Of a DNA stretch of 64,000 nucleotides, positions 682 through 64,000 are shown in pieces (the first letter of the stretch is position 1; every line of letters starts with the position of its first letter). Location of the stretch: positions 682,001 to 746,000 of the forward strand of contig JBBELK010000109.1 of the NCBI GenBank assembly GCA_037783545.1, in the 5' to 3' direction. The stretch comes from Henricia sp. BOLD:AAB3569 (Eukaryota > Echinodermata > Asteroidea > Spinulosida > Echinasteridae). The translations under genes were made by a program, and so were the position numbers. The notes beneath the pieces are model-generated. The model was not told where the DNA came from. It was given only the letters and a program-made list of their open reading frames with translations, and searched no databases.

Positions 682-959
682 GCCAGTTGTTATGTAATTC
701 TATTGTGTTCAGTGTGTATACACTGGCACCTGTCGTTCTAAAACGAAAAGAAATTCCACTTCTCGCATGCTAAGCGAACGGTCAACCACTTGAACTAATC
801 CCCCGATGTTGTTGAGTGTAGGGCACACTTTAAAAATGTTGTACATACTGAACATTTTCAGATGAATTTGGAAGATCCAAATGTTGTACATACTGAACAT
901 TTTCAGATGAATTGTTCACGGCTCACCATGAGCCGTAAACTCAAAAGAACTCTTGAATT

Positions 960-1032
960 TGGAAGATCCGGGTATCGATCCCGGTACTTCTCGCATGCAA
1001 AGCGAGCGCTGTACCACTTGAGCTAATCCGCC
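960..1032 (-). tRNA. tRNA-Ala(TGC)-like, damaged acceptor and D stem
   Basis: The acceptor begins GGCGGAT, so position 3 is C and the G3-U70 pair is lost (C3 faces U70). The D stem has GCTC facing CAGC, so its last pair is also broken. The A box remains recognisable. This class recurs at 3111, 9212, 11363, 15249, 17400 and 19739; 1737 and its duplicates add a further D-stem change. It is probably a pseudogene, since the loss of G3-U70 should abolish alanylation. Confidence 0.75.
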
Positions 1033-1100
1033 GCTGTTGTTGAGTGTTGGGCACACTTTAAAAATGTTGTACATACTGAACATTTTCAGATGAATTGTTC

Positions 1101-1119
1101 ACGGCTCACCATGAGCCGT
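1101..1119. repeat. Spacer hairpin, present once per unit
   Basis: ACGGCTCA-CCA-TGAGCCGT is a perfect 8-bp inverted repeat with a 3-nt loop, extended by GTT/AAC outside one mismatch. It lies just beyond the T4 terminator of every unit. Variant copies (TGACCCG, CACGTCTCACCATCAG, CGACTCACC, TGTGCCG) break stem pairs without compensating changes, which argues against a strongly constrained RNA structure. Confidence 0.7.
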
Positions 1120-1125
1120 AAACTC

Positions 1126-1129
1126 AAAA
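1126..1129 (-). terminator. T4 Pol III terminator of the reference tRNA gene
   Basis: Minus-strand TTTT begins 14 nt beyond A73. The 13-nt trailer plus terminator also reads as a small hairpin, CAAGAG-TT-CTTTTG. Variants elsewhere break the T run: CTCAAAGAAC (2382 and its duplicates, three T), CTCATAAG (45150 class) and CTCAGAAG (44421 class), so those copies could read through. Confidence 0.7.
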
Positions 1130-1142
1130 GAACTCTTGAATT

Positions 1143-1215
1143 TGGAAGATCCGGGTATCGATCCCGGTACTTCTCGCATGCTAAGCGAGCGCTCTACCAC
1201 TTGAGCTAATCCCCC
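1143..1215 (-). tRNA. tRNA-Ala(AGC), reference copy
   Basis: Reading the minus strand, 73 nt divide exactly into a 7-bp acceptor stem (GGGGGAT / ATCTTCC), TA, a 4-bp D stem (GCTC / GAGC) around an 8-nt loop with G18-G19, a 5-bp anticodon stem (CTCGC / GCGAG) around TTAGCAT, a 5-nt variable loop, a 5-bp T stem (CCGGG / CCCGG) around ATCGATA, and discriminator A73. The anticodon AGC decodes alanine, usually after A34 is changed to inosine. G3-U70, the main recognition feature of alanyl-tRNA synthetase, is present, with a second wobble G4-U69 beside it. CCA is not encoded and there is no intron, as in eukaryotic nuclear tRNA genes. The A box TAGCTCAAGTGG and B box GATCGATAC fit the Pol III consensus. 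From memory, eukaryotic tRNA-Ala genes with the same ATCGATA loop are known. Confidence 0.93.
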
Positions 1216-1239
1216 GCTGTTGTTGACTGTTGGGCACAC

Positions 1240-1246
1240 TTTAAAA
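1240..1246 (-). promoter_or_regulatory. TATA-like upstream element of the reference tRNA gene
   Basis: On the minus strand TTTTAAA lies about 25-31 nt before the first base of the tRNA at 1215. It is followed by a CAACA-containing stretch close to the 5' end (CAACACTCAACAACAGC in the commonest spacer version). Such TATA-like and CAA motifs are reported to aid Pol III initiation at many tRNA genes. The block repeats in nearly every 183-bp unit; a common variant has CAAATTTTG replacing AAAATGTTG beside it, and some copies change GGGCACAC to GGGAACAC. Confidence 0.6.
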
Positions 1247-1508
1247 ATGTTGTACATACTGAACATTTTCAGATGAATTGTTCACGGCTCACCATGAGCC
1301 GTAAACTCAAAAGAACTCTTGAATTTGGAAGATCCGGGTATCGATCCCGGTACTTCTCGCATGCTAAGCGAGCGCTCTACCACTTGAGCTAATCCCCCGC
1401 TGTTGTTGAGTGTTGGGCACACTTTAAAAATGTTGTACATACTCAACATTTTCAGATGCATTGTTCACGGCTCACCATGAGCCGTAAACTCAAAAGAACT
1501 CTTGAATT

Positions 1509-1581
1509 TGGAAGATCCGGGTATCGATCCCGGTACTTCTCGCATGCTAAGCGAACGGTCAACCACTTGAACTAATCCCCC
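1509..1581 (-). pseudogene. tRNA-Ala(AGC) pseudogene, D arm decayed
   Basis: The D arm reads GTTC-AAGTGGTT-GACC, leaving position 11 facing C24 unpaired and changing the GGTAGAG motif of the A-box region. The anticodon stem is also weakened (TTCGC facing GCGAG). The same class occurs at 9761 and 15798 and next to each cassette. A related, slightly less decayed class with GCGAGCGGTCAACC is at 2883, 5398, 11135, 17172, 19511, 22762, 24088, 26144, 27836 and every 960-bp repeat after that, always directly followed by the 45-bp block. Confidence 0.7.
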
Positions 1582-2054
1582 GATGTTGTTGAGTGTAGGG
1601 CACACTTTAAAAATGTTGTACATACTGAACATTTTCAGATGAATTTGGAAGAACCAAATGTTGTACATACTGAACATTTTCAGATGAATTGTTCACGGCT
1701 CACCATGAGCCGTAAACTCAAAAGAACTCTTGAATTTGGAAGATCCGGGTATCGATCCCGGTACTTCTCGCATGCAAAGCGAGCGCTGTACCACTTGATC
1801 TAATCCGCCGCTGTTGTTGAGTGTTGGGCACACTTTAAAAATGTTGTACATACTGAACATTTTCAGATGAATTGTTCACGGCTCACCATGAGCCGTAAAC
1901 TCAAAAGAACTCTTGAATTTGGAAGATCCGGGTATCGATCCCGGTACTTCTCGCGTGCAAAGCGAGCGCTCTACCACTTGAGCTAATCCCCCGCTGTTGT
2001 TGAGTGTTGGGCACACTTTAAAAATGTTGTACATACTCAACATTTTTAGATGCA

Positions 2055-2092
2055 TTGTTCACGGCTCACCATGAGTGTCGGGCACACTTTAA
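2055..2092 (-). pseudogene. 71-bp short unit without a tRNA gene
   Basis: CACCATGAG is joined directly to TGTCGGGCAC, skipping 112 bp (trailer, the whole tRNA and 12 bp of leader); the edges share TGAG. The same junction recurs near 2550, 3445, 3925, 4410, 10325, 10805, 11700, 16360, 16840, 17735, 18220, 18700, 19180, 20075, 20555, 20855 and 21520. It always occurs with a TTTTTAGATGCATTG spacer on one side and the 45-bp block on the other, so all copies descend from one event. Confidence 0.8.
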
Positions 2093-2112
2093 AAATGTTG
2101 TACATACTGAAC

Positions 2113-2157
2113 ATTTTCAGATGAATTTGGAAGATCCAAATGTTGTACATACTGAAC
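2113..2157. repeat. 45-bp extra spacer block
   Basis: A partial spacer (ATGTTGTACATACTGAACAT region) is duplicated with the last bases of a tRNA gene, TTTGGAAGATCC, fused between the two copies. The fusion turns a 183-bp spacing into 228 bp. It occurs about 40 times in segments 1-3 (for example near 860, 1640, 3010, 22895, 29660, 36520) and not in segment 4, so it is a useful subfamily marker. Confidence 0.8.
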
Positions 2158-2218
2158 ATTTTCAGATGAATTGTTCACGGCTCACCATGAGCCGTAAACT
2201 CAAAAGAACTCTTGAATT

Positions 2219-2291
2219 TGGAAGATCCGGGTATCGATCCCGGTACTTCTCGCATGCAAAGCGAGCGCTCTACCACTTGAGCTAATCCCCC
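2219..2291 (-). tRNA. tRNA-Ala(TGC), reference copy
   Basis: Identical in fold to the AGC reference, but the anticodon loop is TTTGCAT, giving TGC. A single base change (A to T at position 34) converts one alanine isoacceptor into the other. All stems pair, G3-U70 and A73 are present, and the T4 terminator is intact. It is preceded in transcription order by an ordinary spacer and followed downstream by the 45-bp extra block at about 2115-2167. Confidence 0.92.
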
Positions 2292-2400
2292 GCTGTTGTT
2301 GAGTGTTGGGCACACTTTAAAAATGTTGTACATACTGAACATTTTCAGATGAATTGTGCACGGCTCACAATGAGCCGTAAACTCAAAGAACTCTTGAATT

Positions 2401-2473
2401 TGGAAGATCCGGGTATCGATCCCGGTACTTCTCGCATGCAAAGCGAGTGCTCTACCACTTGAGCTAATCCCCC
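2401..2473 (-). tRNA. tRNA-Ala(TGC)-like with T3 instead of T4 downstream
   Basis: The cloverleaf is intact except for G26 changed to A between D and anticodon stems. Downstream, CTCAAAG replaces CTCAAAAG, leaving only TTT. The spacer hairpin is altered too (GTGCACGGCTCACAATGAG). Duplicates are at 10653 and 16690. T3 is a weak Pol III stop in most animals, so transcripts may extend. Confidence 0.8.
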
Positions 2474-4907
2474 GCTGTTGTTGAGTGTTGGGCACACTTT
2501 AAAAATGTTGTACATACTCAACATTTTTAGATGCATTGTTCACGGCTCACCATGAGTGTTGGGCACACTTTAAAAATGTTGTACATACTGAACATTTTCA
2601 GATGAATTTGGAAGATCCAAATGTTGTACATACTGAACATTTTCAGATGAATTGTTCACGGCTCACCATGAGCCGTAAACTCAAAAGAACTCTTGAATTT
2701 AGAAGATCCGGGTATCGATCCCGGTACTTCTCGCATGCTAAGCGAGCGCTCTACCGCTTGAGCTAATCCCCCGCTGTTGTTGAGTGTTGGGCACACTTTA
2801 AAAATGTTGTACATACTCAACATTTTCAGATGCATTGTTCACGGCTCACCATGAGCCGTAAACTCAAAAGAACTCTTGAATTTGGAAGATCCGGGTATCG
2901 ATCCCGGTACTTCTCGCATGCTAAGCGAGCGGTCAACCACTTGAACTAATCCCCCGATGTTGTTGAGTGTAGGGCACACTTTAAAAATGTTGTACATACT
3001 GAACATTTTCAGATGAATTTGGAAGATCCAAATGTTGTACATACTGAACATTTTCAGATGAATTGTTCACGGCTCACCATGAGCCGTAAACTCAAAAGAA
3101 CTCTTGAATTTGGAAGATCCGGGTATCGATCCCGGTACTTCTCGCATGCAAAGCGAGCGCTGTACCACTTGAGCTAATCCGCCGCTGTTGTTGAGTGTTG
3201 GGCACACTTTAAAAATGTTGTACATACTGAACATTTTCAGATGAATTGTTCACGGCTCACCATGAGCCGTAAACTCAAAAGAACTCTTGAATTTGGAAGA
3301 TCCGGGTATCGATCCCAGTACTTCTCGCATGCAAAGCGAGCGCTCTACCACTTGAGCTAATCCCCCGCTGTTGTTGAGTGTTGGGCACACTTTAAAAATG
3401 TTGTACATACTCAACATTTTTAGATGCATTGTTCACGGCTCACCATGAGTGTCGGGCACACTTTAAAAATGTTGTACATACTGAACATTTTCAGATGAAT
3501 TTGGAAGATCCAAATGTTGTACATACTGAACATTTTCAGATGAATTGTTCACGGCTCACCATGAGCCGTAAACTCAAAAGAACTCTTGAATTTGGAAGAT
3601 CCGGGTATCGATCCCGGTACTTCTCGCATGCAAAGCGAGCGCTCTACCACTTGAGCTAATCCCCCGCTGTTGTTGAGTGTAGGGCACACTTTAAAAATGT
3701 TGTACATACTGAACATTTTCAGATGAATTGTTCACGGCTCACCATGAGCCGTAAACTCAAAAGAACTCTTGAATTTGGAAGATCCGGGTATCGATCCCGG
3801 TACTTCTCGCATGCAAAGCGAGCGCTCTACCACTTGAGCTAATCCCCCGCTGTTGTTGAGTGTTGGGCACACTTTAAAAATGTTGTACATACTCAACATT
3901 TTTAGATGCATTGTTCACGGCTCACCATGAGTGTTGGGCACACTTTAAAAATGTTGTACATACTGAACATTTTCAGATGATTTTGGAAGATCCAAATGTT
4001 GTACATACTGAACATTTTCAGATGAATTGTTCACGGCTCACCATGAGCCGTAAACTCAAAAGAACTCTTGAATTTGGAAGATCCGGGTATCGATCCCGGT
4101 ACTTCTCGCATGCAAAGCGAGCGCTCTACCACTTGAGCTAATCCCCCGCTGTTGTTGAGTGTAGGGCACACTTTAAAAATGTTGTACATACTGAACATTT
4201 TCAGATGAATTGTTCACGGCTCACCATGAGCCGTAAACTCAAAAGAACTCTTGAATTTGGAAGATCCGGGTATCGATCCCGGTACTTCTCGCATGCAAAG
4301 CGAGCGCTCTACCACTTGAGCTAATCCCCCGCTGTTGTTGAGTGTTGGGCACACTTTAAAAATGTTGTACATACTCAACATTTTTAGATGCATTGTTCAC
4401 GGCTCACCATGAGTGTTGGGCACACTTTAAAAATGTTGTACATACTGAACATTTTCAGATGAATTTGGAAGATCCAAATGTTGTACATACTGAACATTTT
4501 CAGATGAATTGTTCACGGCTCACCATGAGCCGTAAACTCAAAAGAACTCTTGAATTTGGAAGATCCGGGTATCGATCCCGGTACTTCTCGCATGCAAAGC
4601 GAGCGCTCTACCACTTGAGCTAATCCCCCGCTGTTGTTGAGTGTTGGGCACACTTTAAAAATGTTGTACATACTGAACATTTTCGGATGAATTGTTCACG
4701 GCTCACCATGAGCCGTAAACTCAAAAGAACTCTTGAATTTGGAAGATCCGGGTATCGATCCCGGTACTTCTCGCATGCTAAGCGAGCGCTCTACCACTTG
4801 AGCTAATCCCCCGCTGTTGTTGAGTGTAGGGCACACTTTAAAAATGTTGTACATACTCAACATTTTCAGATGCATTGTTCACGGCTCACCATGAGCCGTA
4901 AACTCAA

Positions 4908-4923
4908 AAGAACTAATCCCCGC
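4908..4923 (-). pseudogene. Remnant of a tRNA-Ala unit with the gene excised
   Basis: AAGAACT is joined directly to AATCCCCGCTG, so everything from just after the terminator to the first bases of the acceptor stem is missing (74 bp relative to a normal unit). GAACT and GAGCT at the two edges share short homology, suggesting a slippage or microhomology deletion. Confidence 0.75.
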
Positions 4924-5031
4924 TGTTGTTGAGTGTTGGGCACACTTTACAAATTTTGTACATACTGAACATTTTCAGATGAATTGTTCACGGCTCACCA
5001 TGAGCCGTAAACTCAAAAGAACTCTTGAATT

Positions 5032-5104
5032 TGGAAGATCCGGGTATCGATCCCGGTACTTCTCGCATGCTAAGCGAGCGCTCAACCACTTGAGCTAATC
5101 CCCC
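5032..5104 (-). tRNA. tRNA-Ala(AGC), follows a deleted unit
   Basis: A full-length copy with CTCAACC in the D arm (GGTTGAGC), which keeps D-stem pairing while changing the loop. It lies 292 bp from its neighbour at 4740 because the intervening unit has lost 74 bp, including almost the whole tRNA gene. Confidence 0.8.
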
Positions 5105-6904
5105 GCTGTTGTTGACTGTTGGGCACACTTTAAAAATGTTGTACATACTGAACATTTTCAGATGAATTGTTCACGGCTCACCATGAGCCGTAAACTCAAA
5201 AGAACTCTTGAATTTGGAAGATCCGGGTATCGATCCCGGTACTTCTCGCATGCTAAGCGAGCGCTCTACCACTTGAGCTAATCCCCCGCTGTTGTTGAGT
5301 GTTGGGCACACTTTAAAAATGTTGTACATACTCAACATTTTCAGATGCATTGTTCACGGCTCACCATGAGCCGTAAACTCAAAAGAACTCTTGAATTTGG
5401 AAGATCCGGGTATCGATCCCGGTACTTCTCGCATGCTAAGCGAGCGGTCAACCACTTGAACTAATCCCCCGATGTTGTTGAGTGTAGGGCACACTTTAAA
5501 AATGTTGTACATACTGAACATTTTCAGATGAATTTGGAAGATCCAAATGTTGTACATACTGAACATTTTCAGATGAATTGTTCACGGCTCACCATGAGCC
5601 GTAAACTCAAAAGAACTCTTGAATTTGGAAGATCCGGGTATCGATCCCGGTACTTCTCGCATGCAAAGCGAGCGCTCTACCACTTGAGCTAATCCCCGCT
5701 GTTGTTGAGTGTTGGGCACACTTTACAAATTTTGTACATACTGAACATTTTCAGATGAATTGTTCACGGCTCACCATGAGCCGTAAACTCAAAAGAACTC
5801 TTGAATTTGGAAGATCCGGGTATCGATCCCGGTACTTCTCGCATGCTAAGCGAGCGGTCTACCACTTGAGCTAATCCCCCGCTGTTGTTGACTGTTGGGC
5901 ACACTTTAAAAATGTTGTACATACTGAACATTTTCAGATGAATTGTTCACGGCTCACCATGAGCCGTAAACTCAAAAGAACTCTTGAATTTGGAAGATCC
6001 GGGTATCGATCCCGGTACTTCTCGCATGCAAAGCGAGCGCTCTACCACTTGAGCTAATCCCCCGCTGTTGTTGACTGTTGGGCACACTTTAAAAATGTTG
6101 TACATACTGAACATTTTCAGATGAATTGTTCACGGCTCACCATGAGCCGTAAACTCAAAAGAACTCTTGAATTTGGAAGATCCGGGTATCGATCCCGGTA
6201 CTTCTCGCATGCAAAGCGAGCGCTCTACCACTTGAGCTAATCCCCCGCTGTTGTTGAGTGTTGGGCACACTTTACAAATTTTGTACATACTGAACATTTT
6301 CAGATGAATTGTTCACGGCTCACCATGAGCCGTAAACTCAAAAGAACTCTTGAATTTGGAAGATCCGGGTATCGATCCCGGTACTTCTCGCATGCAAAGC
6401 GAGCGCTCTACCACTTGAGCTAATCCCCGCTGTTGTTGAGTGTTGGGCACACTTTACAAATTTTGTACATACTGAACATTTTCAGATGAATTGTTCACGG
6501 CTCACCATGAGCCGTAAACTCAAAAGAACTCTTGAATTTGGAAGATCCGGGTATCGATCCCGGTACTTCTCGCATGCTAAGCGAGCGCTCTACCACTTGA
6601 GCTAATCCCCCGCTGTTGTTGACTGTTGGGCACACTTTAAAAATGTTGTACATACTGAACATTTTCAGATGAATTGTTCACGGCTCACCATGAGCCGTAA
6701 ACTCAAAAGAACTCTTGAATTTGGAAGATCCGGGTATCGATCCCGGTACTTCTCGCATGCTAAGCGAGCGCTCTACCACTTGAGCTAATCCCCCGCTGTT
6801 GTTGAGTGTTGGGCACACTTTAAAAATGTTGTACATACTCAACATTTTCAGATGCATTGTTCACGGCTCACCATGAGCCGTAAACTCAAAAGAACTCTTG
6901 AATT

Positions 6905-6934
6905 TGGAAGATCCGGGTATCGATCCCGGTACTT
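6905..6934 (-). pseudogene. 3' part of a tRNA-Ala gene split by the first full cassette
   Basis: Thirty nucleotides from A73 to the variable loop, ending in ACTT at 6931-6934. Together with 9014-9056 they make exactly 73 nt, so one tRNA gene was interrupted in its variable loop. ACTT is repeated at 9010-9013, consistent with a 4-bp target duplication. The equivalent for the second full cassette is 12942-12971 with 15047-15093. Confidence 0.85.
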
Positions 6935-7619
6935 TCTTCCTCCATACTTCCGTCAGAAAATTCATTTCTTTTCTATTTATACCTCATGTGAGACAAGAAA
7001 AGGACAAAAAACAGGTCAAATGTTTCCAATGGTGAACAGTGGCTAGGTCGTTGTGTGAACCTTGCTGTTCGATTTATTTTAAACTCCGCTAATCAGCTTG
7101 ATTAGGATCAAATTATATGCACAAATGTAATGTCCTTCAAATGTGGTTGAAAACAATAATTATACACGTCTGGTGTAAGCCGTGTTAAAGGCCTAGCGAT
7201 TTAGAGGCTATCAAACTAGCATCTGAACCAAGTTGGATGTATGAATTGCGAGCTGTAAACAATAAAAAAGTTCACGGTATCTAGGTCTCGACAATAAAGT
7301 GTCTCGGAACTGAAACTGAATTCGGGTCGAGTGTCGGACCAGCAATGTGTGCTGGCGCTCGGTGGCCACGAAAAACCCCCAGCCATTGGAGGAAACGTGG
7401 GTGCATCCAGGGCACTCGACAGGGGTGCACTCCCCAGGTCCGAATTCTGATTGAAGTGGGAAAATGGGGTGGGCGGGATTGTACGGCAAAGTTGACACGG
7501 TTGACCGAGAGTGAGCCACTGAAGCAAACGTGGCGTTTATATAGCCAGTTGTTATGTAATTCTATTGTGTTCAGTGTGTATACACTGGCACCTGTCGTTC
7601 TAAAACGAAAAGAAATTCC
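6935..7619 (-). mobile_element. Cassette element 1 (A-X-B), 685 bp
   Basis: Starts TCTTCCTCCATACTTCC and ends GAAATTCC, flanked by ACTT at 6931-6934 and 7620-7623. Part A (6935-7068) is repeated at 7624-7756 and part B (7478-7619) at 8868-9009; the middle X (7069-7477) is unique to this element. There are no terminal inverted repeats and no TG...CA ends. Minus-strand orientation is suggested by a TATA box at 7536-7543 that reads toward X. X has an open minus-strand frame of about 100 codons starting in the shared leader, without a family I recognise. A duplicate is at 12972-13656. Confidence 0.65.
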
Positions 7620-7798
7620 ACTTTCTTCCTCCATACTTCCGTCAGAAAATTCATTTCTTTTCTATTTATACCTCATGTGAGACAAGAAAAGGACAAAAAC
7701 AGGTCAAATGTTTCCAATGGTGAACAGTGGCTAGGTCGTTGTGTGAACCTTGCTGTAGTCTATAGAAAGTCGCAAAAGAAAGGGCAAAGGGGAAACAA

Positions 7799-8475
7799 AA
7801 AACAACAAAGGTAAAAAGGTATTAAATAACAAATTACGATTGCCAGTTCCGGTGTGGAAAGATCAACAATTAAGCATTGTGAGATTAAACTTTGAACGAT
7901 GTGCTCGATGCTAAATATTGGACGGACAAAAAATCCGCTGTCCCTCAAATCGAATTCGATACCAAACGATCGAATAAAATGTGTTAAAAACTCAGTGCCA
8001 TACGACTGGGTATACGCAAATGTCTATGCCGCCTCAAATAGACGTTTATTGGCCTTCGGTGCGCGCGGAACGCGGAAAAAACAACAAAAGTAAAAATGTA
8101 TTAAATAACAAATTACGATTGCCAGTTCCGGTGTGGAAAGATCAACAATTAAGCGTTGTGAGATTAAACTTTGAACGATGTGCTCGATGCCAAATATTGG
8201 ACGGACAAAAAATCCGCTGTCCCTCAAATCGAATTCGATACCAAACGATCGAATAAAATGCGTTATAAACTCAGTACCATACGACTGGGTGGACGCAATT
8301 AAGCGTTGTGAGATTAAACTTTGAACGATGTGCTCGATGCCAAATATTGGACGGACAAAAAATCCGCTGTCCCTCAAATCGAATTTGATACCAAACGATC
8401 GAATAAAATGTGTTATAAACTCAGTACCATACGACTGGGTGGACGCAAATGTCTATGCCGCCTCAATTAGACGTT
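7799..8475. repeat. Imperfect tandem repeat in cassette part Y
   Basis: Copy 1 starts near 7799 (AACAACAAAGGTAAAAAGG), copy 2 near 8080 (period about 280 bp), and a truncated copy 3 begins at CAATTAAGCG near 8296 (period 150 bp for the shared part). Each contains GGACGGACAAAAAATCCGCTG and CATACGACTGGGT. The plus-strand frame of copy 2 has a short conserved peptide (LRLPVPVWKDQQLSVVRLNF) interrupted by stops between copies. Duplicates lie at 13836-14512 and partly at 1-223. Confidence 0.7.
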
Positions 8476-8869
8476 TCTGCGATGTACTCTTTCACAACTC
8501 CCCAGCCGAGATCAGAACGGTCAGCAAGTCGTATGAGCTTTTGACGTTCCTTGATGGACTTCACGGCGGCGTTCCAGTCGGTCTTGGCCGAGTCGATGTC
8601 AAGGCTGTCAATGTTCTGAATGGCCGACTCGACAAGCGAAAGAAGCTTCTCGCAGTGCTTGTGCTGCTGTTGATGCCGTCGCGTTTGAACGTCGGAACGT
8701 CTGATAAGCGTTGCTTCTTGCAAGCCGATTCGACCTTGAAGTCTAATGACTTAGAAAGGGCCTGGGTAGCGTTCAGTATCTGATCACTGCTGGTACCGGA
8801 CTCCAAACCGCCGACGCCCGGTTCGAGGGAAATGTTCGATGCGGTGCGTGAAGACGTGTGTAGAATCAT
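8463..8869 (-). pseudogene. gag-like retroelement fragment, second copy
   Basis: Same sequence and same frameshift as 211-617, at an offset of 8252 bp. The shared damage shows that decay preceded the duplication. Confidence 0.4.
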
Positions 8870-9009
8870 TGTACGGCAAAGTTGACACGGTTGACCGAGA
8901 GTGAGCCACTGAAGCAAACGTGGCGTTTATATAGCCAGTTGTTATGTAATTCTATTGTGTTCAGTGTGTATACACTGGCACCTGTCGTTCTAAAACGAAA
9001 AGAAATTCC

Positions 9010-9056
9010 ACTTCTCGCATGCTAAGCGAACGGTCAACCACTTGAACTAATCCCCC
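9010..9056 (-). pseudogene. 5' part of a tRNA-Ala gene split by the first full cassette
   Basis: Contains the second ACTT (9010-9013) and then the anticodon arm, D arm and 5' acceptor strand of a tRNA with the decayed GAACGGTCAACC D arm. The two halves may come from one damaged gene, because that D-arm class occurs intact elsewhere at 1509. The window also begins with this arrangement at 758-804 and repeats it at 15047-15093. Confidence 0.85.
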
Positions 9057-12000: not shown

Positions 12001-12971
12001 CCGTAAACTCAAAAGAACTCTTGAATTTGGAAGATCCGGGTATCGATCCCGGTACTTCTCGCATGCAAAGCGAGCGCTCTACCACTTGAGCTAATCCCCC
12101 GCTGTTGTTGACTGTTGGGCACACTTTAAAAATGTTGTACATACTGAACATTTTCAGATGAATTGTTCACGGCTCACCATGAGCCGTAAACTCAAAAGAA
12201 CTCTTGAATTTGGAAGATCCGGGTATCGATCCCGGTACTTCTCGCATGCAAAGCGAGCGCTCTACCACTTGAGCTAATCCCCCGCTGTTGTTGAGTGTTG
12301 GGCACACTTTACAAATTTTGTACATACTGAACATTTTCAGATGAATTGTTCACGGCTCACCATGAGCCGTAAACTCAAAAGAACTCTTGAATTTGGAAGA
12401 TCCGGGTATCGATCCCGGTACTTCTCGCATGCAAAGCGAGCGCTCTACCACTTGAGCTAATCCCCGCTGTTGTTGAGTGTTGGGCACACTTTACAAATTT
12501 TGTACATACTGAACATTTTCAGATGAATTGTTCACGGCTCACCATGAGCCGTAAACTCAAAAGAACTCTTGAATTTGGAAGATCCGGGTATCGATCCCGG
12601 TACTTCTCGCATGCTAAGCGAGCGCTCTACCACTTGAGCTAATCCCCCGCTGTTGTTGACTGTTGGGCACACTTTAAAAATGTTGTACATACTGAACATT
12701 TTCAGATGAATTGTTCACGGCTCACCATGAGCCGTAAACTCAAAAGAACTCTTGAATTTGGAAGATCCGGGTATCGATCCCGGTACTTCTCGCATGCTAA
12801 GCGAGCGCTCTACCACTTGAGCTAATCCCCCGCTGTTGTTGAGTGTTGGGCACACTTTAAAAATGTTGTACATACTCAACATTTTCAGATGCATTGTTCA
12901 CGGCTCACCATGAGCCGTAAACTCAAAAGAACTCTTGAATTTGGAAGATCCGGGTATCGATCCCGGTACTT
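9010..12971 (-). repeat. tRNA-Ala tandem array, segment 2 (18 complete copies)
   Basis: Near-identical to segment 1 shifted by 8252 bp at its left end and by 6037 bp at its right end, so about 12 units are missing in the middle. Gene starts: 9212, 9395, 9578, 9761, 9989, 10172, 10471, 10653, 10952, 11135, 11363, 11546, 11845, 12028, 12211, 12394, 12576, 12759. Half genes at 9010-9056 and 12942-12971 belong to tRNA copies split by the flanking cassettes. The join that replaces the missing units lies near 12107, where the spacer switches from GTTGAG to GTTGAC just after a tRNA gene. Confidence 0.93.
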
Positions 12972-49718: not shown

Positions 49719-49791
49719 TGGAAGATCCGGGTATCGATCCTGGTACTTCTCGCATGCTAAGCGGGCGATCTACCACTTGAGCTAATCCCCC
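49719..49791 (-). pseudogene. tRNA-Ala(AGC)-like with mismatches in three stems
   Basis: CCTGGTAC gives an A-C mismatch in the T stem, GCGGGCG gives a C-A mismatch in the anticodon stem and GATC breaks the D stem. This combination is very abundant in segment 4 (for example 50268, 55195, 55744, 57212, 57761, 59224, 60869, 61418, 62882, 63431), where it alternates with better copies. Confidence 0.75.
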
Positions 49792-49901
49792 GCTGTTGTT
49801 GAGTGTTGGGCACACTTTAAAAATGTTGTACATACTCAACATTTTCAGATGCATTGTTCACGGCTCACCATGAGCCGTAAACTCAAAAGAACTCTTAAAT
49901 T

Positions 49902-49974
49902 TGGAAGATCCGGGTATCGATCCCGGTACTTCTCGCATGCAAAGCGAGCGGTCTACCACTTGAGCTAATCCCAG
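49902..49974 (-). pseudogene. tRNA-Ala(TGC)-like with broken acceptor (CTGGGAT)
   Basis: Plus-strand AATCCCAGG replaces AATCCCCC, so bases 1 and 2 (C, T) cannot pair with C72 and C71. The D stem is GCTC facing GACC. Its trailer is TTAAATTTGG rather than TTGAATTTGG. The class repeats at 50451, 55378, 55927, 57395, 57944, 61052, 61601, 63065 and 63614. Confidence 0.75.
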
Positions 49975-52900: not shown

Positions 52901-55900
52901 AGTGTTGGGCACACTTTAAAAATGTTGTACATACTCAACATTTTCAGATGAATTGTTCACGTCTCACCATCAGCCGTAAACTCAAAAGAACTCTTGAATT
53001 TGGAAGATCCGGGTATCGATCCCGGTACTTCTCGCATGCTAAGCGAGCGCTCTACCACTTGAGCTAATCCCCCGCTGTTGTTGAGTGTTGGGCACACTTT
53101 AAAAATGTTGTACATACTGAACATTTTCAGATGAATTGTTCACGGCTCACCATGAGCCGTAAACTCATAAGAACTCTTGAATTTGGAAGATCCGGGTATC
53201 GATCCCGGTACTTCTCGCATGCAAAACGAGCGCTCTACCACTTGAGCTAATCCCCCGCTGTTGTTGAGTGTTGGGCACACTTTAAAAATGTTGTACATAC
53301 TCAACATTTTCAGATGAATTGTTCACGGCTCACCATGAGCCGTCAACTCAAAAGCACTCTTGAATTTGAAAGATCCGGGTATCGATCCCGGTACTTCTCG
53401 CATGCAAAGCGAGCGCTCTACCACTTGAGTTAATTACCCGCTGTTGTTGAGTGTTGGGCACACTTTAAAAATGTTGTACATACTCAACATTTTCAGATGA
53501 ATTGTTCACGTCTCACCATCAGCCGTAAACTCAAAAGAACTCTTGAATTTGGAAGATCCGGGTATCGATCCCGGTACTTCTCGCATGCTAAGCGAGCGCT
53601 CCACCACTTGAGCTAATCCCCCGCTGTTGTTGAGTGTAGGGAACACTTTAAAAATGTTGTACATACTCAACATTTTCAGATGCATTGTTCACGGCTCACC
53701 ATGACCCGTAAACTCAAAAGAACTCTTGAATTTGGAAGATCCGGGTATCGATCCCGGTACTTCTCGCATGCTAAGCGAGCGCCTCACCACTTGAGCTAAT
53801 CCCCGCTGTTGTTGACTGTTGGGCACACTTTAAAAATGTTGTACACACTGAACATTTTCAGATGAATTGTTCACGGCTCACCATGAGCCGTAAACTCAAA
53901 AGAACTCTTGAATTTGGAAGATCCGGGTATCGATCCCGGTACTTCTCGCATGCTAAGCGAGCGCTCTACCACTTGAGCTAATCCCCCGCTGTTGTTGAGT
54001 GTAGGGAACACTTTAAAAATGTTGTACATACTCAACATTTTCAGATGCATTGTTCACGGCTCACCATGACCCGTAAACTCAAAAGAACTCTTGAATTTGG
54101 AAGATCCGGGTATCGATCCCGGTACTTCTCGCATGCTAAGCGAGCGCTCTACCACTTGAGCTAATCCCCGCTGTTGTTGACTGTTGGGCACACTTTAAAA
54201 ATGTTGTACATACTCAACATTTTCAGACGCATTGTTCACGGCTCACCATGAGCCGTAAACTCAAAAGAACTCTTGAATTTGGAAGATCCGGGTATCGATC
54301 CCGGTACTTCTCGCATGCAAAGCGAGCGCTCTACCACTTGATTTAATCCCCCGCTGTTGTTGAGTGTTTGGCACACTTTAACAATGTTGTACACACTGAA
54401 CATTTTCAGATGAATTGTTCACGACTCACCATGAGCCGTAAACTCAAAAGAACTCTTGAATTTGGAAGATCCGGGTATTGATCCCGGTACTTCTCGCATG
54501 CTAAGCGAGCGCTCTATCACTTGAGCTAATCCCCCGCTGTTGTTGAGTGTTGGGCACACTTTAAAAATGTTGTACATACTCAACATTTTCAGATGCATTG
54601 TTCACGGCTCACCATGAGCCGTAAACTCAAAAGAACTCTTAAATTTGGAAGATCCGGGTATCGATCCCGGTATCTCTCGCATGCAAAGCGAGCGCTCTAC
54701 CACTTGAGCTAATCCCACGCTGTTGTTGAGTGTTGGGCACACTTTAAAAATGTTGTACATACTGAACATTTTCAGATGAATTGTTCACGTCTCACCATCA
54801 GCCGTAAACTCAAAAGAACTCTTGAATTTGGAAGATCCGGGTATCGATCCCGGTACTTCTCGCATGCTAAGCGAGCGCTCTACCACTTGAGCTAATCCCC
54901 CGCTGTTGTTGAGTGTTGGGCACACTTTAAAAATGTTGTACATACTGAACATTTTCAGATGAATTGTTCACGGCTCACCATGAGCCGTAAACTCAAAATA
55001 ACTCTTGAATTTGGAAGATCCGGGTATCGATCCCGGTACTTCTCGCATGCTAAGCGAGCGCTCTACCACTTGAGCTAATCCCCCGCTGTTGTTGAGCGTT
55101 GGGCACACTTTAAAAATGTTGTACATACTGAACATTTTCAGATGAATTGTTCACGGCTCACCATGAGCCGTAAACTCAAAAGAACTCTTGAATTTGGAAG
55201 ATCCGGGTATCGATCCTGGTACTTCTCGCATGCTAAGCGGGCGATCTACCACTTGAGCTAATCCCCCGCTGTTGTTGAGTGTTGGGCACACTTTAAAAAT
55301 GTTGTACATACTCAACATTTTCAGATGCATTGTTCACGGCTCACCATGAGCCGTAAACTCAAAAGAACTCTTAAATTTGGAAGATCCGGGTATCGATCCC
55401 GGTACTTCTCGCATGCAATGCGAGCGGTCTACCACTTGAGCTAATCCCAGGCTGTTGTTGAGTGTTGGGCACACTTTAAAAATGTTGTACATACTGAACA
55501 TTTTCAGATGAATTGTTCACGGCTCACCATGAGCCGTAAACTCAAAATAACTCTTGAATTTGGAAGATCCGGGTATCGATCCCGGTACTTCTCGCATGCT
55601 AAGCGAGCGCTCTACCACTTGAGCTAATCCCCCGCTGTTGTTGAGCGTTGGGCACACTTTAAAAATGTTGTACATACTGAACATTTTCAGATGAATTGTT
55701 CACGGCTCACCATGAGCCGTAAACTCAAAAGAACTCTTGAATTTGGAAGATCCGGGTATCGATCCTGGTACTTCTCGCATGCTAAGCGGGCGATCTACCA
55801 CTTGAGCTAATCCCCCGCTGTTGTTGAGTGTTGGGCACACTTTAAAAATGTTGTACATACTCAACATTTTCAGATGCATTGTTCACGGCTCACCATGAGC

Positions 55901-55926
55901 CGTAAACTCAAAAGAACTCTTAAATT

Positions 55927-56003
55927 TGGAAGATCCGGGTATCGATCCCGGTACTTCTCGCATGCAAAGCGAGCGGTCTAGCTACCACTTGAGCTAATCC
56001 CAG
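55927..56003 (-). pseudogene. tRNA-Ala-like copy with a 4-bp insertion
   Basis: GGTCTAGCTACC replaces GGTCTACC, adding four bases within the D arm of a CTGGGAT-class copy. It is the only unit of 187 bp found, useful as a marker of this position. Confidence 0.75.
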
Positions 56004-59000
56004 GCTGTTGTTGAGTGTTGGGCACACTTTAAAAATGTTGTACATACTGAACATTTTCAGATGAATTGTTCACGGCTCACCATGAGCCGTAAACTCAAAA
56101 GAACTCTTGAATTTGGAAGATCCGGGTATCGATCCCGGTACTTCTCGCATGCTAAGCGAGCGCTCTACCACTTGATCTAATCCCCCGCTGTTGTTGAGTG
56201 TTTGGCACACTTTAACAATGTTGTACACACTGAACATTTTCAGATGAATTGTTCACGACTCACCATGAGCCGTAAACTCAAAAGAACTCTTGAATTTGGA
56301 AGATCCGGGTATCGATCCCGGTACTTCTCGCATGCTAAGCGAGCGCTCTACCACTTGAGCTAATCCCCCGCTGTTGTTGACTGTTGGGCACACTTTAAAA
56401 ATGTTGTACATACTCAACATTTTCAGATGCATTGTTCACGGCTCACCATGAGCCGTAAACTCAAAAGAACTCTTGAATTTGGAAGATCCGTGTATTGATC
56501 CCGGTACTTCTCGCATGCTAAGCGAGCGCTCTACCACTTGAGCTAATCCCCCGCTGTTGTTGAGTGTTGGGCACACTTTAAAAATGTTGTACATACTCAA
56601 CATTTTCAGATGCATTGTTCACGGCTCACCATGAGCCGTAAACTCAGAAGAACTGTTGAATTTGGAAGATCCGGGTATCGATCCCGGTATCTCTCGCATG
56701 CAAAGCGAGCGCTCTACCACTTGAGCTAATCCCACGCTGTTGTTGAGTGTTGGGCACACTTTAAAAATGTTGTACATACTGAACATTTTCAGATGAATTG
56801 TTCACGTCTCACCATCAGCCGTAAACTCAAAAGAACTCTTGAATTTGGAAGATCCGGGTATCGATCCCGGTACTTCTCGCATGCTAAGCGAGCGCTCTAC
56901 CACTTGAGCTAATCCCCCGCTGTTGTTGAGTGTTGGGCACACTTTAAAAATGTTGTACATACTGAACATTTTCAGATGAATTGTTCACGGCTCACCATGA
57001 GCCGTAAACTCAAAATAACTCTTGAATTTGGAAGATCCGGGTATCGATCCCGGTACTTCTCGCATGCTAAGCGAGCGCTCTACCACTTGAGCTAATCCCC
57101 CGCTGTTGTTGAGCGTTGGGCACACTTTAAAAATGTTGTACATACTGAACATTTTCAGATGAATTGTTCACGGCTCACCATGAGCCGTAAACTCAAAAGA
57201 ACTCTTGAATTTGGAAGATCCGGGTATCGATCCTGGTACTTCTCGCATGCTAAGCGGGCGATCTACCACTTGAGCTAATCCCCCGCTGTTGTTGAATGTT
57301 GGGCACACTTTAAAAATGTTGTACATACTCAACATTTTCAGATGCATTGTTCACGGCTCACCATGAGCCGTAAACTCAAAAGAACTCTTAAATTTGGAAG
57401 ATCCGGGTATCGATCCCGGTACTTCTCGCATGCAAAGCGAGCGGTCTACCACTTGAGCTAATCCCAGGCTGTTGTTGAGTGTTGGGCACACTTTAAAAAT
57501 GTTGTACATACTGAACATTTTCAGATGAATTGTTCACGGCTCACCATGAGCCGTAAACTCAAAATAACTCTTGAATTTGGAAGATCCGGGTATCGATCCC
57601 GGTACTTCTCGCATGCTAAGCGAGCGCTCTACCACTTGAGCTAATCCCCCGCTGTTGTTGAGCGTTGGGCACACTTTAAAAATGTTGTACATACTGAACA
57701 TTTTCAGATGAATTGTTCACGGCTCACCATGAGCCGTAAACTCAAAAGAACTCTTGAATTTGGAAGATCCGGGTATCGATCCTGGTACTTCTCGCATGCT
57801 AAGCGGGCGATCTACCACTTGAGCTAATCCCCCGCTGTTGTTGAGTGTTGGGCACACTTTAAAAATGTTGTACATACTCAACATTTTCAGATGCATTGTT
57901 CACGGCTCACCATGAGCCGTAAACTCAAAAGAACTCTTAAATTTGGAAGATCCGGGTATCGATCCCGGTACTTCTCGCATGCAAAGCGAGCGGTCTACCA
58001 CTTGAGCTAATCCCAGGCTGTTGTTGAGTGTTGGGCACACTTTAAAAATGTTGTACATACTGAACATTTTCAGATGAATTGTTCACGGCTCACCATGAGC
58101 CGTAAACTCAAAAGAACTCTTGAATTTGGAAGATCCGGGTATCGATCCCGGTACTTCTCGCATGCTAAGCGAGCGCTCTACCACTTGATCTAATCCCCCG
58201 CTGTTGTTGAGTGTTTGGCACACTTTAACAATGTTGTACACACTGAACATTTTCAGATGAATTGTTCACGACTCACCATGAGCCGTAAACTCAAAAGAAC
58301 TCTTGAATTTGGAAGATCCGGGTATCGATCCCGGTACTTCTCGCATGCTAAGCGAGCGCTCTACCACTTGAGCTAATCCCCCGCTGTTGTTGACTGTTGG
58401 GCACACTTTAAAAATGTTGTACATACTCAACATTTTCAGATGCATTGTTCACGGCTCACCATGAGCCGTAAACTCAAAAGAACTCTTGAATTTGGAAGAT
58501 CCGTGTATTGATCCCGGTACTTCTCGCATGCTAAGCGAGCGCTCTACCACTTGAGCTAATCCCCCGCTGTTGTTGAGTGTTGGGCACACTTTAAAAATGT
58601 TGTACATACTCAACATTTTCAGATGCATTGTTCACGGCTCACCATGAGCCGTAAACTCAGAAGAACTGTTGAATTTGGAAGATCCGGGTATCGATCCCGG
58701 TATCTCTCGCATGCAAAGCGAGCGCTCTACCACTTGAGCTAATCCCACGCTGTTGTTGAGTGTTGGGCACACTTTAAAAATGTTGTACATACTGAACATT
58801 TTCAGATGAATTGTTCACGTCTCACCATCAGCCGTAAACTCAAAAGAACTCTTGAATTTGGAAGATCCGGGTATCGATCCCGGTACTTATCGCATGCTAA
58901 GCGAGCGCTCTACCACTTGAGCTAATCCCCGCTGTTGTTGAGTGTTGGGCACACTTTAAAAATGTTGTACATACTGAACATTTTCAGATGAATTGTTCAC

Positions 59001-62000
59001 GGCTCACCATGAGCCGTAAACTCAAAATAACTCTTGAATTTGGAAGATCCGGGTATCGATCCCGGTACTTCTCGCATGCTAAGCGAGCGCTCTACCACTT
59101 GAGCTAATCCCCCGCTGTTGTTGAGCGTTGGGCACACTTTAAAAATGTTGTACATACTGAACATTTTCAGATGAATTGTTCACGGCTCACCATGAGCCGT
59201 AAACTCAAAAGAACTCTTGAATTTGGAAGATCCGGGTATCGATCCTGGTACTTCTCGCATGCTAAGCGGGCGATCTACCACTTGAGCTAATCCCCCGCTG
59301 TTGTTGAATGTTGGGCACACTTTAAAAATATTGTACATACTCAACATTTTCAGATGCATTGTTCACGGCTCACCATGAGCCGTAAACTCAAAAGAACTCT
59401 TGAATTTGGAAGATCCGGGTATCGATCCCGGTACTTCTCGCATGCTAAGCGAGCGCTCTACCACTTGAGCTAATCCCCGCTGTTGTTGACTGTTGGGCAC
59501 ACTTTAAAAATGTTGTACACACTGAACATTTTCAGATGAATTGTTCACGGCTCACCATGAGCCGTAAACTCAAAAGAACTCTTGAATTTGGAAGATCCGG
59601 GTATCGATCCCGGTACTTCTCGCATGCTAAGCGAGCGCTCTACCACTTGAGCTAATCCCCCGCTGTTGTTGAGTGTAGGGAACACTTTAAAAATGTTGTA
59701 CATACTCAACATTTTCAGATGCATTGTTCACGGCTCACCATGACCCGTAAACTCAAAAGAACTCTTGAATTTGGAAGATCTGGGTATCGATCCCGGTACT
59801 TCTCGCATGCTAAGCGAGCGCTCTACCACTTGAGCTAATCCCCGCTGTTGTTGACTGTTGGGCACACTTTAAAAATGTTGTACATACTCAACATTTTCAG
59901 ACGCATTGTTCACGGCTCACCATGAGCCGTAAACTCAAAAGAACTCTTGAATTTGGAAGATCCGGGTATCGATCCCGGTACTTCTCGCATGCAAAGCGAG
60001 CGCTCTACCACTTGATTTAATCCCCCGCTGTTGTTGAGTGTTTGGCACACTTTAACAATGTTGTACACACTGAACATTTTCAGATGAATTGTTCACGACT
60101 CACCATGAGCCGTAAACTCAAAAGAACTCTTGAATTTGGAAGATCCGGGTATTGATCCCGGTACTTCTCGCATGCTAAGCGAGCGCTCTGTCACTTGAGC
60201 TAATCCCCCGCTGTTGTTGAGTGTTGGGCACACTTTAAAAATGTTGTACATACTCAACATTTTCAGATGCATTGTTCACGGCTCACCATGAGCCGTAAAC
60301 TCAAAAGAACTCTTAAATTTGGAAGATCCGGGTATCGATCCCGGTATCTCTCGCATGCAAAGCGAGCGCTCTACCACTTGAGCTAATCCCACGCTGTTGT
60401 TGAGTGTTGGGCACACTTTAAAAATGTTGTACATACTGAACATTTTCAGATGAATTGTTCACGTCTCACCATCAGCCGTAAACTCAAAAGAACTCTTGAA
60501 TTTGGAAGATCCGGGTATCGATCCCGGTACTTCTCGCATGCTAAGCGAGCGCTCTACCACTTGAGCTAATCCCCCGCTGTTGTTGAGTGTTGGGCACACT
60601 TTAAAAATGTTGTACATACTGAACATTTTCAGATGAATTGTTCACGGCTCATCATGAGCCGTAAACTCAAAATAACTCTTGAATTTGGAAGATCCGGGTA
60701 TCGATCCCGGTACTTCTCGCATGCTAAGCGAGCGCTCTACCACTTGAGCTAATCCCCCGCTGTTGTTGAGCGTTGGGCACACTTTAAAAATGTTGTACAT
60801 ACTGAACATTTTCAGATGAATTGTTCACGGCTCACCATGAGCCGTAAACTCAAAAGAACTCTTGAATTTGGAAGATCCGGGTATCGATCCTGGTACTTCT
60901 CGCATGCTAAGCGGGCGATCTACCACTTGAGCTAATCCCCCGCTGTTGTTGAGTGTTGGGCACACTTTAAAAATGTTGTACATACTCAACATTTTCAGAT
61001 GCATTGTTCACGGCTCACCATGAGCCGTAAACTCAAAAGAACTCTTAAATTTGGAAGATCCGGGTATCGATCCCGGTACTTCTCGCATGCAATGCGAGCG
61101 GTCTACCACTTGAGCTAATCCCAGGCTGTTGTTGAGTGTTGGGCACACTTTAAAAATGTTGTACATACTGAACATTTTCAGATGAATTGTTCACGGCTCA
61201 CCATGAGCCGTAAACTCAAAATAACTCTTGAATTTGGAAGATCCGGGTATCGATCCCGGTACTTCTCGCATGCTAAGCGAGCGCTCTACCACTTGAGCTA
61301 ATCCCCCGCTGTTGTTGAGCGTTGGGCACACTTTAAAAATGTTGTACATACTGAACATTTTCAGATGAATTGTTCACGGCTCACCATGAGCCGTAAACTC
61401 AAAAGAACTCTTGAATTTGGAAGATCCGGGTATCGATCCTGGTACTTCTCGCATGCTAAGCGGGCGATCTACCACTTGAGCTAATCCCCCGCTGTTGTTG
61501 AGTGTTGGGCACACTTTAAAAATGTTGTACATACTCAACATTTTCAGATGCATTGTTCACGGCTCACCATGAGCCGTAAACTCAAAAGAACTCTTAAATT
61601 TGGAAGATCCGGGTATCGATCCCGGTACTTCTCGCATGCAAAGCGAGCGGTCTACCACTTGAGCTAATCCCAGGCTGTTGTTGAGTGTTGGGCACACTTT
61701 AAAAATGTTGTACATACTGAACATTTTCAGATGAATTGTTCACGGCTCACCATGAGCCGTAAACTCAAAAGAACTCTTGAATTTGGAAGATCCGGGTATC
61801 GATCCCGGTACTTCTCGCATGCTAAGCGAGCGCTCTACCACTTGATCTAATCCCCCGCTGTTGTTGAGTGTTTGGCACACTTTAACAATGTTGTACACAC
61901 TGAACATTTTCAGATGAATTGTTCACGACTCACCATGAGCCGTAAACTCAAAAGAACTCTTGAATTTGGAAGATCCGGGTATCGATCCCGGTACTTCTCG

Positions 62001-63979
62001 CATGCTAAGCGAGCGCTCTACCACTTGAGCTAATCCCCCGCTGTTGTTGACTGTTGGGCACACTTTAAAAATGTTGTACATACTCAACATTTTCAGATGC
62101 ATTGTTCACGGCTCACCATGAGCCGTAAACTCAAAAGAACTCTTGAATTTGGAAGATCCGTGTATTGATCCCGGTACTTCTCGCATGCTAAGCGAGCGCT
62201 CTACCACTTGAGCTAATCCCCCGCTGTTGTTGAGTGTTGGGCACACTTTAAAAATGTTGTACATACTCAACATTTTCAGATGCATTGTTCACGGCTCACC
62301 ATGAGCCGTAAACTCAGAAGAACTGTTGAATTTGGAAGATCCGGGTATCGATCCCGGTATCTCTCGCATGCAAAGCGAGCGCTCTACCACTTGAGCTAAT
62401 CCCACGCTGTTGTTGAGTGTTGGGCACACTTTAAAAATGTTGTACATACTGAACATTTTCAGATGAATTGTTCACGTCTCACCATCAGCCGTAAACTCAA
62501 AAGAACTCTTGAATTTGGAAGATCCGGGTATCGATCCCGGTACTTCTCGCATGCTAAGCGAGCGCTCTACCACTTGAGCTAATCCCCCGCTGTTGTTGAG
62601 TGTTGGGCACACTTTAAAAATGTTGTACATACTGAACATTTTCAGATGAATTGTTCACGGCTCACCATGAGCCGTAAACTCAAAATAACTCTTGAATTTG
62701 GAAGATCCGGGTATCGATCCCGGTACTTCTCGCATGCTAAGCGAGCGCTCTACCACTTGAGCTAATCCCCCGCTGTTGTTGAGCGTTGGGCACACTTTAA
62801 AAATGTTGTACATACTGAACATTTTCAGATGAATTGTTCACGGCTCACCATGAGCCGTAAACTCAAAAGAACTCTTGAATTTGGAAGATCCGGGTATCGA
62901 TCCTGGTACTTCTCGCATGCTAAGCGGGCGATCTACCACTTGAGCTAATCCCCCGCTGTTGTTGAATGTTGGGCACACTTTAAAAATGTTGTACATACTC
63001 AACATTTTCAGATGCATTGTTCACGGCTCACCATGAGCCGTAAACTCAAAAGAACTCTTAAATTTGGAAGATCCGGGTATCGATCCCGGTACTTCTCGCA
63101 TGCAAAGCGAGCGGTCTACCACTTGAGCTAATCCCAGGCTGTTGTTGAGTGTTGGGCACACTTTAAAAATGTTGTACATACTGAACATTTTCAGATGAAT
63201 TGTTCACGGCTCACCATGAGCCGTAAACTCAAAATAACTCTTGAATTTGGAAGATCCGGGTATCGATCCCGGTACTTCTCGCATGCTAAGCGAGCGCTCT
63301 ACCACTTGAGCTAATCCCCCGCTGTTGTTGAGCGTTGGGCACACTTTAAAAATGTTGTACATACTGAACATTTTCAGATGAATTGTTCACGGCTCACCAT
63401 GAGCCGTAAACTCAAAAGAACTCTTGAATTTGGAAGATCCGGGTATCGATCCTGGTACTTCTCGCATGCTAAGCGGGCGATCTACCACTTGAGCTAATCC
63501 CCCGCTGTTGTTGAGTGTTGGGCACACTTTAAAAATGTTGTACATACTCAACATTTTCAGATGCATTGTTCACGGCTCACCATGAGCCGTAAACTCAAAA
63601 GAACTCTTAAATTTGGAAGATCCGGGTATCGATCCCGGTACTTCTCGCATGCAAAGCGAGCGGTCTACCACTTGAGCTAATCCCAGGCTGTTGTTGAGTG
63701 TTGGGCACACTTTAAAAATGTTGTACATACTGAACATTTTCAGATGAATTGTTCACGGCTCACCATGAGCCGTAAACTCAAAAGAACTCTTGAATTTGGA
63801 AGATCCGGGTATCGATCCCGGTACTTCTCGCATGCTAAGCGAGCGCTCTACCACTTGATCTAATCCCCCGCTGTTGTTGAGTGTTTGGCACACTTTAACA
63901 ATGTTGTACACACTGAACATTTTCAGATGAATTGTTCACGACTCACCATGAGCCGTAAACTCAAAAGAACTCTTGAATT

Positions 63980-64000
63980 TGGAAGATCCGGGTATCGATC
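63980..64000 (-). tRNA. tRNA-Ala, cut by the window end
   Basis: Only the 3' 21 nt (A73, acceptor 3' strand and part of the T arm) are inside the window, all matching the reference. The array clearly continues beyond 64000. Confidence 0.85.

Follow-up and report, generated by a model that had tools for sequence, protein, structure and literature searches.

A tandem array of tRNA-Ala genes spanning about 304 kb in the genome of the starfish Henricia sp.

The window analysed here is a 64,000-bp stretch of DNA from the starfish Henricia sp. BOLD:AAB3569 (positions 682,001 to 746,000 of contig C109, JBBELK010000109.1, in a genome of 740.7 Mb and 2,104 contigs), and it carries a tandem array of alanine transfer RNA (tRNA-Ala) genes. 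A sequence-only reading of the window had counted 270 complete copies, all on one strand and all with alanine anticodons, interrupted only by cassettes and one transposon-like element, and within the window this description holds. A similarity search (blastn) recovers 270 tRNA-Ala-like copies, all on the minus strand: for 267 of them the alignment covers 60 bp or more of the 73, and the other three lack 12 nt of the T arm. Six further tRNA fragments lie at the cassette junctions and the window end. With Rfam, 266 matches reach the gathering score, the best at 57.3 bits against a cut-off of 29, so that on the covariance check proposed by the same reading nearly all copies exceed the cut-off (266 matches for 270 copies); the 150 matches listed of these 266 are all assigned to RF00005 (tRNA). 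ARAGORN predicts 232 tRNA-Ala genes, again all on the minus strand and with anticodon AGC or TGC, and the 266 full-length (73-nt) copies divide into 155 AGC and 111 TGC.

The repeating unit is 183 bp long and consists of a 73-bp tRNA gene and a 110-bp spacer. Neighbouring copies in the window stand exactly 183 bp apart in 203 of 269 intervals, the remainder being mostly 182, 228 or 299 bp. Two full cassettes and one 6-kb element break the array into segments, all on the minus strand. The segment at 758..6934 contains 183-bp units together with variants of 228, 299 and 292 bp, and both of its ends are tRNA fragments cut by cassettes; the next, at 9010..12971, lies in a block that recurs 8,252 and 6,037 bp away with 99.7-100% identity over kilobases. 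A third segment, traced by ARAGORN and the similarity search, occupies 15047..37639, and the last, at 43634..64000, shows higher-order repeats with best unit likeness at 31 and 11 units and runs on beyond the window.

The window is thus a slice of a larger array. We examined a 264-kb piece, made up of the window and a 100-kb flank on each side, of a contig that is 2.88 Mb long. The left edge of the array lies at about position 625,932 of C109; in the flank that was read the array extends past 845.8 kb, short probes find it at nine of nine places between 856 and 929 kb, and the right edge falls between 929,400 and 931,001. Probes outside the array on the same contig were all empty, both the 16 placed between 931 kb and 1.35 Mb and the four between 302 and 552 kb. 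The total length is therefore about 304 kb, of which the window covers about one-fifth. The initial 220 kb hold 1,055 tRNA-Ala copies (aligned over at least 54 bp), from which we estimate 1,456-1,464 copies in the whole array by density, or 1,511-1,520 if the final 84 kb consist of unbroken 183-bp units. A figure of 1,570, obtained by scaling from the counts of a 30-mer, was rejected because so many 183-bp units would not fit into the 84 kb that remain, and for that reason length and density were used for the total. The exact spacer 30-mer occurs 1,265 times in reverse and twice in forward orientation genome-wide (850 and 2 within the 264-kb piece); its reversed control has no match against these 1,267, and chance is therefore ruled out. 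Over the 220 kb, 826 of 1,054 intervals are exactly 183 bp. The single-strand rule is close to absolute across the piece, with 4 of 1,078 tRNA matches opposite to the rest. Units in both orientations occur, in like arrangement, at C109:822,056-822,521 and 833,014-833,479, 10,958 bp apart.

The quality of the tRNA gene was assessed on 1,023 full-length copies from the 220 kb, excluding 30 copies of 72 nt and two longer ones. Their anticodons are TGC in 513, AGC in 504, GGC in three, CGC in two and ATC in one, so that 1,022 of 1,023 read NGC and the claim that all anticodons are alanine ones fails for a single full-length copy beyond the window. The G3:U70 pair, the identity pair for alanyl-tRNA synthetase, is kept in 1,005 copies, and 543 are intact by a strict rule that requires full pairing in all stems, every universal base, the G3:U70 pair and an NGC anticodon. 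The AGC and TGC consensus tRNAs differ solely at wobble base 34, are matched exactly by 269 and 224 copies, respectively, and both have the cloverleaf as their minimum-energy fold. Exact consensus copies score 54.0 bits (AGC) and 56.8 bits (TGC), and the three dispersed tRNA-Ala(AGC) copies that were compared, on contigs C1185 and C305, score 51.4-51.7; because the consensus copies outscore these three, the array is not, by this measure, a degraded relative of better genes. In 150 kb of flanks Rfam gives a further 713 matches above cut-off, and the 150 of them listed are all RF00005.

Individual genes illustrate these features. A tRNA-Ala(AGC) at 1143..1215 (minus strand, 54.0 bits) has its A-box region at 1197-1208 and its B-box region at 1154-1164, both placed by tRNA position, and a tRNA-Ala(TGC) at 1920..1992 (minus strand) has the top covariance score in the window, 57.3 bits. 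The A-box region, TAGCTCAAGTGG, fits by eye the A-box consensus, TRGYNNARNNGG. A TTTT run at 1126..1129 (minus strand), resembling a terminator of RNA polymerase III (Pol III), lies 14-17 nt past the first of these genes, and throughout the 220 kb a T4 run starts 14 nt past the gene in 837 of 890 units. Taken together, the array consensus is a sound predicted tRNA-Ala gene. The array tRNA has C40 and A45, where the three dispersed copies and the copies read from a tRNA-Ala(CGC) array on contig C307 have T40 and G45.

The units are similar without being uniform. Among the 890 units used for the unit-based tests (units with a spacing outside 172-190 bp being excluded) there are 350 distinct sequences. 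A unit differs on average from the consensus at 3.7 of 183 bases (2.0%), and two random units differ at 6.2 (3.4%). Near-identical blocks, 99-100% over up to 4 kb, recur along the contig: between 678 and 698 kb the offsets are 8,252, 6,037 and 14,289 bp, between 736 and 742 kb 5,674 bp, between 750 and 757 kb 3,225 bp, for the pair at 796 and 812 kb 16,223 bp, and for the pair at 820 and 831 kb 10,958 bp. The distance at which units resemble one another best varies by region and is 7, 11, 31 or 33 units. These near-identical blocks and higher-order periods, together with the identical cassette copies described below, point to unequal exchange and segmental amplification. The signature of concerted evolution is also found, in that units lie so close to the consensus within the array and only about 50 spacer bases can be aligned with the array on C307. 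The order of AGC and TGC copies is not random, since neighbours share base 34 in 548 of 1,017 cases against an expected 508 +/- 15.5, and 10 of 135 tRNA backgrounds are found with both anticodons.

Tandem amplification is not peculiar to tRNA-Ala(AGC/TGC) in this genome, as a survey covering tRNA-Ala and the tRNA-Lys and tRNA-Tyr isotypes makes clear. An exact tRNA-Lys(TTT) 35-mer has 392 matches genome-wide; among the 100 listed in contig order, 81 lie at 129-199 kb of C109, 16 on C837 and three elsewhere. The arrays on C109 (129-145 kb) and C837 have a 572-595-bp unit in which tRNA-Lys(TTT) and a tRNA-Tyr(GTA) with an intron-like insert are divergent, and within the C109 array the tRNA-Lys matches switch strand. 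Arrays of tRNA-Ala(CGC) have a period of 162 bp on C454 and 379 bp on C307; the former, at C454:2677901-2680000, belongs to a different tRNA-Ala lineage and scores 58.6-68.8 bits.

Dispersed tRNA-Ala copies followed by T-runs are present. An exact 27-mer from the 5' half of the array tRNA-Ala has 1,107 reverse and nine forward matches genome-wide, of which 696 and two lie in the 264-kb piece; among the 100 matches listed in contig order, a list that ends inside the array, two are on contigs C1-C108. Dispersed copies would be expected on both strands alike, yet only seven forward matches lie outside the piece, and so they look few. Dispersed whole units, which would indicate a short interspersed element or another tRNA-derived retroposon, were not found when the DNA was searched with the full unit (20 candidates scored and 61 matches obtained, with common words passed over); the matches outside C109 cover the tRNA part or a short stretch of C307 spacer. 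A motif from the D arm occurs 21,409 times genome-wide and not at all in the reversed control, but this number was rejected as a count of tRNA genes, because the two clusters sampled (C3:346901-349100 and C1:306601-307900) are 78-bp tandem minisatellites, neither of them with a tRNA match. In the same assembly, the mitochondrial contig C955 contains COX1 three times with a period of 16,221 bp and is likely an unrolled circle; its COX1 has AAA at eight of eight Asn positions of the solved mammalian protein, as in the echinoderm-type code, and its gene order is ND1 (by position), a minus-strand tRNA cluster and COX1, an order that we take to match that of asteroids.

Variation among the copies offers a view of selection at two levels. 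Within the array, the tRNA has 1.30 minor states per site and the spacer 1.19 (890 units, p 0.46), which gives no sign of constraint; pair-keeping substitutions in stems number 11 of 75 against an expected 20% (p 0.91), no more than chance would give; and the universal and identity positions, with 22 minor states against 23.6 expected (p 0.37), are not spared. A minimum spanning tree of 348 haplotypes puts 230 of 528 changes in the tRNA against 210.6 expected (p 0.09), and the pair-keeping stem changes on it number 22 against 22.3. Base 34 was considered as an outlier of recurrent change on this tree and rejected, with 14 changes against 38 jointly at spacer sites 123 and 138. These tests show single copies to be without detectable selection, as far as sequence variation can tell. 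Between arrays the picture differs. Against the tRNA-Ala(CGC) array on C307, the tRNA differs at 3 of 73 bases (34, 40 and 45), and in the spacer only about 50 bp can be aligned, the main 48-bp stretch being 79-85% identical; a Fisher test of tRNA against spacer gives p values between 0.050, for the C307 copy closest to the array, and 0.006, for the one furthest from it. Between the two tRNA-Lys/Tyr arrays, of which 13 and 14 units were read, 1 of 155 tRNA positions is different, as are 21 of 429 spacer positions (p 0.013). Because differences between arrays are fewer in the tRNA than in the spacer, tRNA bodies seem to be preserved in the long term, although not at the level of the single copy.

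The cassettes at 6935..9009 and 12972..15046 are copies of a dispersed, high-copy mobile element, and the end of a further copy, located left of the window start, occupies 1..757; the first of them interrupts a tRNA-Ala gene, and ACTT stands at each of its two junctions. In the 264 kb examined, a 2,078-bp cassette stretch is present in three copies that are 100% identical, and the cassette's 134-bp start and 146-bp end sequences also join head-to-tail internally, with ACTT between them as at the outer junctions. The cassette was considered as an element restricted to tRNA arrays, and this was rejected on finding at least 37 near-full-length copies of its initial 685 bp beyond the array, about 99% identical (among the best 40 of 613 candidates scored). 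None of three cassette frames has a Pfam match above cut-off, two giving weak matches (best E 0.0086). The DNA-transposon-like insertion at 37640..43633 lies in a spacer, begins its terminal inverted repeats with CAGAAAATAAATACTGAGTCAA, is flanked by TGTACA on both sides and is present once in the 264 kb examined; five of its frames have no Pfam match. Its terminal repeats are rich in TGAGTCA, and palindromic minisatellites of CCGGGATCCCGG lie within it. The spacer has a fold z-score of -3.6 and contains, in the consensus unit and for example at 1097..1123, an inverted repeat with a 12-bp stem that includes one G-U pair and a 3-nt loop. This repeat was rejected as a conserved RNA: the variant C103G disrupts it in 70 of 890 units, and tRNA is the sole Rfam family to reach the gathering score in window positions 37,200-46,500.

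Overall, we believe that this locus is likely to be a nuclear tandem array of tRNA-Ala genes that has grown and been homogenised by local amplification and exchange, with selection acting on its summed output. Each 183-bp unit would represent one Pol III-type gene of 73 bp with its 110-bp spacer, and local amplification and exchange would both spread the units and keep them alike. If selection acts only on the output of the array as a whole, many defective copies would be tolerated, and homogenisation may keep the consensus functional over longer times. Because the 27-mer matches concentrate in the array, with few outside it, the array may well be the main locus for tRNA-Ala(AGC) and tRNA-Ala(TGC). 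Most copies probably exceed what is needed and may be active only when demand is very high, for instance during oogenesis or cleavage, by analogy with other animal tRNA arrays.

Several observations weigh against this interpretation. The B-box region, GGATCGATACC, matches the general B box, GGTTCRANNCC, at all bases but one; its A54 is common to the array, the three dispersed copies and the C307 copies. Without sites 34, 123 and 138, the tree places 216 changes in the tRNA against 190.4 expected (p 0.017), the opposite of constraint. The consensus-level comparison with C307 is borderline when the most similar copy is used, and variability within the tRNA-Lys/Tyr arrays does not differ clearly between tRNA and spacer (4 of 155 against 19 of 438 sites on C109, and 12 of 154 against 46 of 418 on C837). 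The total copy number is an estimate, the final 84 kb of the array having been sampled by probes only. An inert satellite would be expected to lack constraint at the level of the copy just as this array does, and the main rival explanation is accordingly that the array originated in a tRNA-Ala gene, expanded through recombination and is now silent, with dispersed genes supplying tRNA-Ala. The equal variability of tRNA and spacer, the failure of stem changes to preserve pairing, the existence of dispersed tRNA-Ala copies with T-runs and the presence in this genome of tRNA-like DNA that is not genic (the two sampled 78-bp D-arm minisatellites) are all consistent with it. What makes us regard it as unlikely is that consensus copies of the array outscore the three dispersed copies and 543 of 1,023 copies are strictly intact, that tRNA bodies are better preserved than spacers between arrays, and that the dispersed copies look few, with seven forward 27-mer matches outside the 264-kb piece. 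The sequence-only reading had itself proposed a satellite grown from a tRNA gene: the evolution of the array, drifting and homogenised, is indeed best described in this way, but the consensus remains a sound predicted tRNA gene.

The remaining explanations are less credible. More than 1,000 copies of a single isotype at one locus might suggest, as the earlier reading also did, a supply selected for one alanine-rich product in some tissue, but this genome has amplified further tRNAs as well (tRNA-Lys/Tyr on C109 and C837, with 392 exact tRNA-Lys matches, and tRNA-Ala(CGC) on C454 and C307), and for this reason we find a one-product supply unsupported and very improbable. A structural or chromatin role, as a boundary, a replication-fork barrier or a Pol III hub, of which the earlier reading had also raised the boundary and a Pol III domain, and in which the array is maintained and its tRNA output is incidental, would suit the dense internal promoter regions, the near-constant orientation and the spacer fold (z-score -3.6). 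Effects of tRNA gene (tDNA) clusters on replication forks (PMC2888827) and a boundary function of a human tRNA repeat (PMC4041453) have been discussed. The frequency of C103G (70 of 890 units), which breaks the inverted repeat, counts against such a role, and we give it slightly less credence still. Finally, the assembler might have inflated a few true copies, as certain blocks identical over 4 kb could suggest; this we hold to be the most improbable of all, given 350 distinct sequences among 890 units, a transposon insertion that occurs once in the piece, higher-order patterns specific to each region and a 2.88-Mb contig that extends well beyond both array edges.

One further idea can be entertained, which we put forward as speculation and think rather improbable, namely that the array is a self-adjusting reservoir of isoacceptors, in which exchange or conversion could shift the AGC:TGC ratio without any other change. 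The interspersion of 504 AGC and 513 TGC copies in one array, and the 10 of 135 backgrounds with both, are what such a reservoir would offer. Across the 1,023 copies, base 35 of the anticodon shows one change and base 36 none; a change at either would let a tRNA charged with alanine decode the wrong codons, and near-fixity could mean that the copies are expressed and that toxic misreading variants are purged, ordinary defects being tolerated. Against the idea, spacer sites 123 and 138 shuffle more than base 34, and 10 of the 73 tRNA positions are invariant, bases 35 and 36 having been chosen post hoc.

As a kind, the tandem tRNA array is known; what is unusual here is its size, its short period and how evenly its two main anticodons are represented. 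Xenopus has a 3.18-kb tDNA repeat in high copy, an animal tandem array like this one, with a far longer unit that contains several different tRNA genes. Large tDNA clusters are found in the nuclear genomes of Nematostella, zebrafish and stickleback, animals in which clusters of fifty or more members are described as exceptional; Nematostella has more than 17,000 tRNA genes and pseudogenes, 89% of them clustered, and 65% are clustered in zebrafish (PMC2888827). Neighbouring tDNAs in Nematostella and zebrafish mostly form heterogeneous pairs (PMC2888827), in contrast to the starfish array, where a single isotype recurs roughly 1,500 times with a 183-bp period. The Entamoeba arrays resemble ours in their tandem units, in the concerted evolution invoked for them, in the several array types per genome and in that some are named by one gene (R-TCT, H-GTG); they differ in that almost all tRNA genes are arrayed there, in 25 array units in E. 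histolytica, whereas the starfish genome has dispersed copies, and in that, unlike in the starfish array, short tandem repeats lie within the spacers of two species (PMC2652664). The Arabidopsis Ser-Tyr-Tyr (SYY) cluster likewise consists of redundant tDNAs of restricted amino-acid type that arose by tandem duplication, in far lower number (the tRNA-Tyr family has 70 genes in total), and is silent in most tissues and expressed in root tips (PMC12308677). A human variable-number tandem repeat at 1q23.3 is also built of tRNA-gene units and unstable in copy number, but its unit is 7.3 kb, it binds CTCF and alleles hold 9-43 units (PMC4041453). Very high asteroid tRNA counts have been predicted in Asterias amurensis, 14,926 (PMC10625585) and 6,779 (PMC11090083), reports that, unlike the array here, are known to us by these counts alone. 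Among the titles and opening lines of abstracts listed from the open PMC literature, we found no description of an echinoderm tRNA array. Thus, the earlier judgement that the array looks exceptional stands for its size and short period and not for its kind, given the large animal tDNA clusters (PMC2888827) and the Asterias amurensis counts (PMC11090083, PMC10625585).

In practice, a very high tRNA count in a genome of this type has to be divided between gene arrays such as this one and minisatellites that carry only a D arm and are not genes. Two isoacceptors within one homogenising array present a testable case. With some 1,500 neutral-looking copies and a sound consensus, the Henricia array is an unusually clean natural case in which to ask how selection upholds a gene family even though each of its copies is dispensable.

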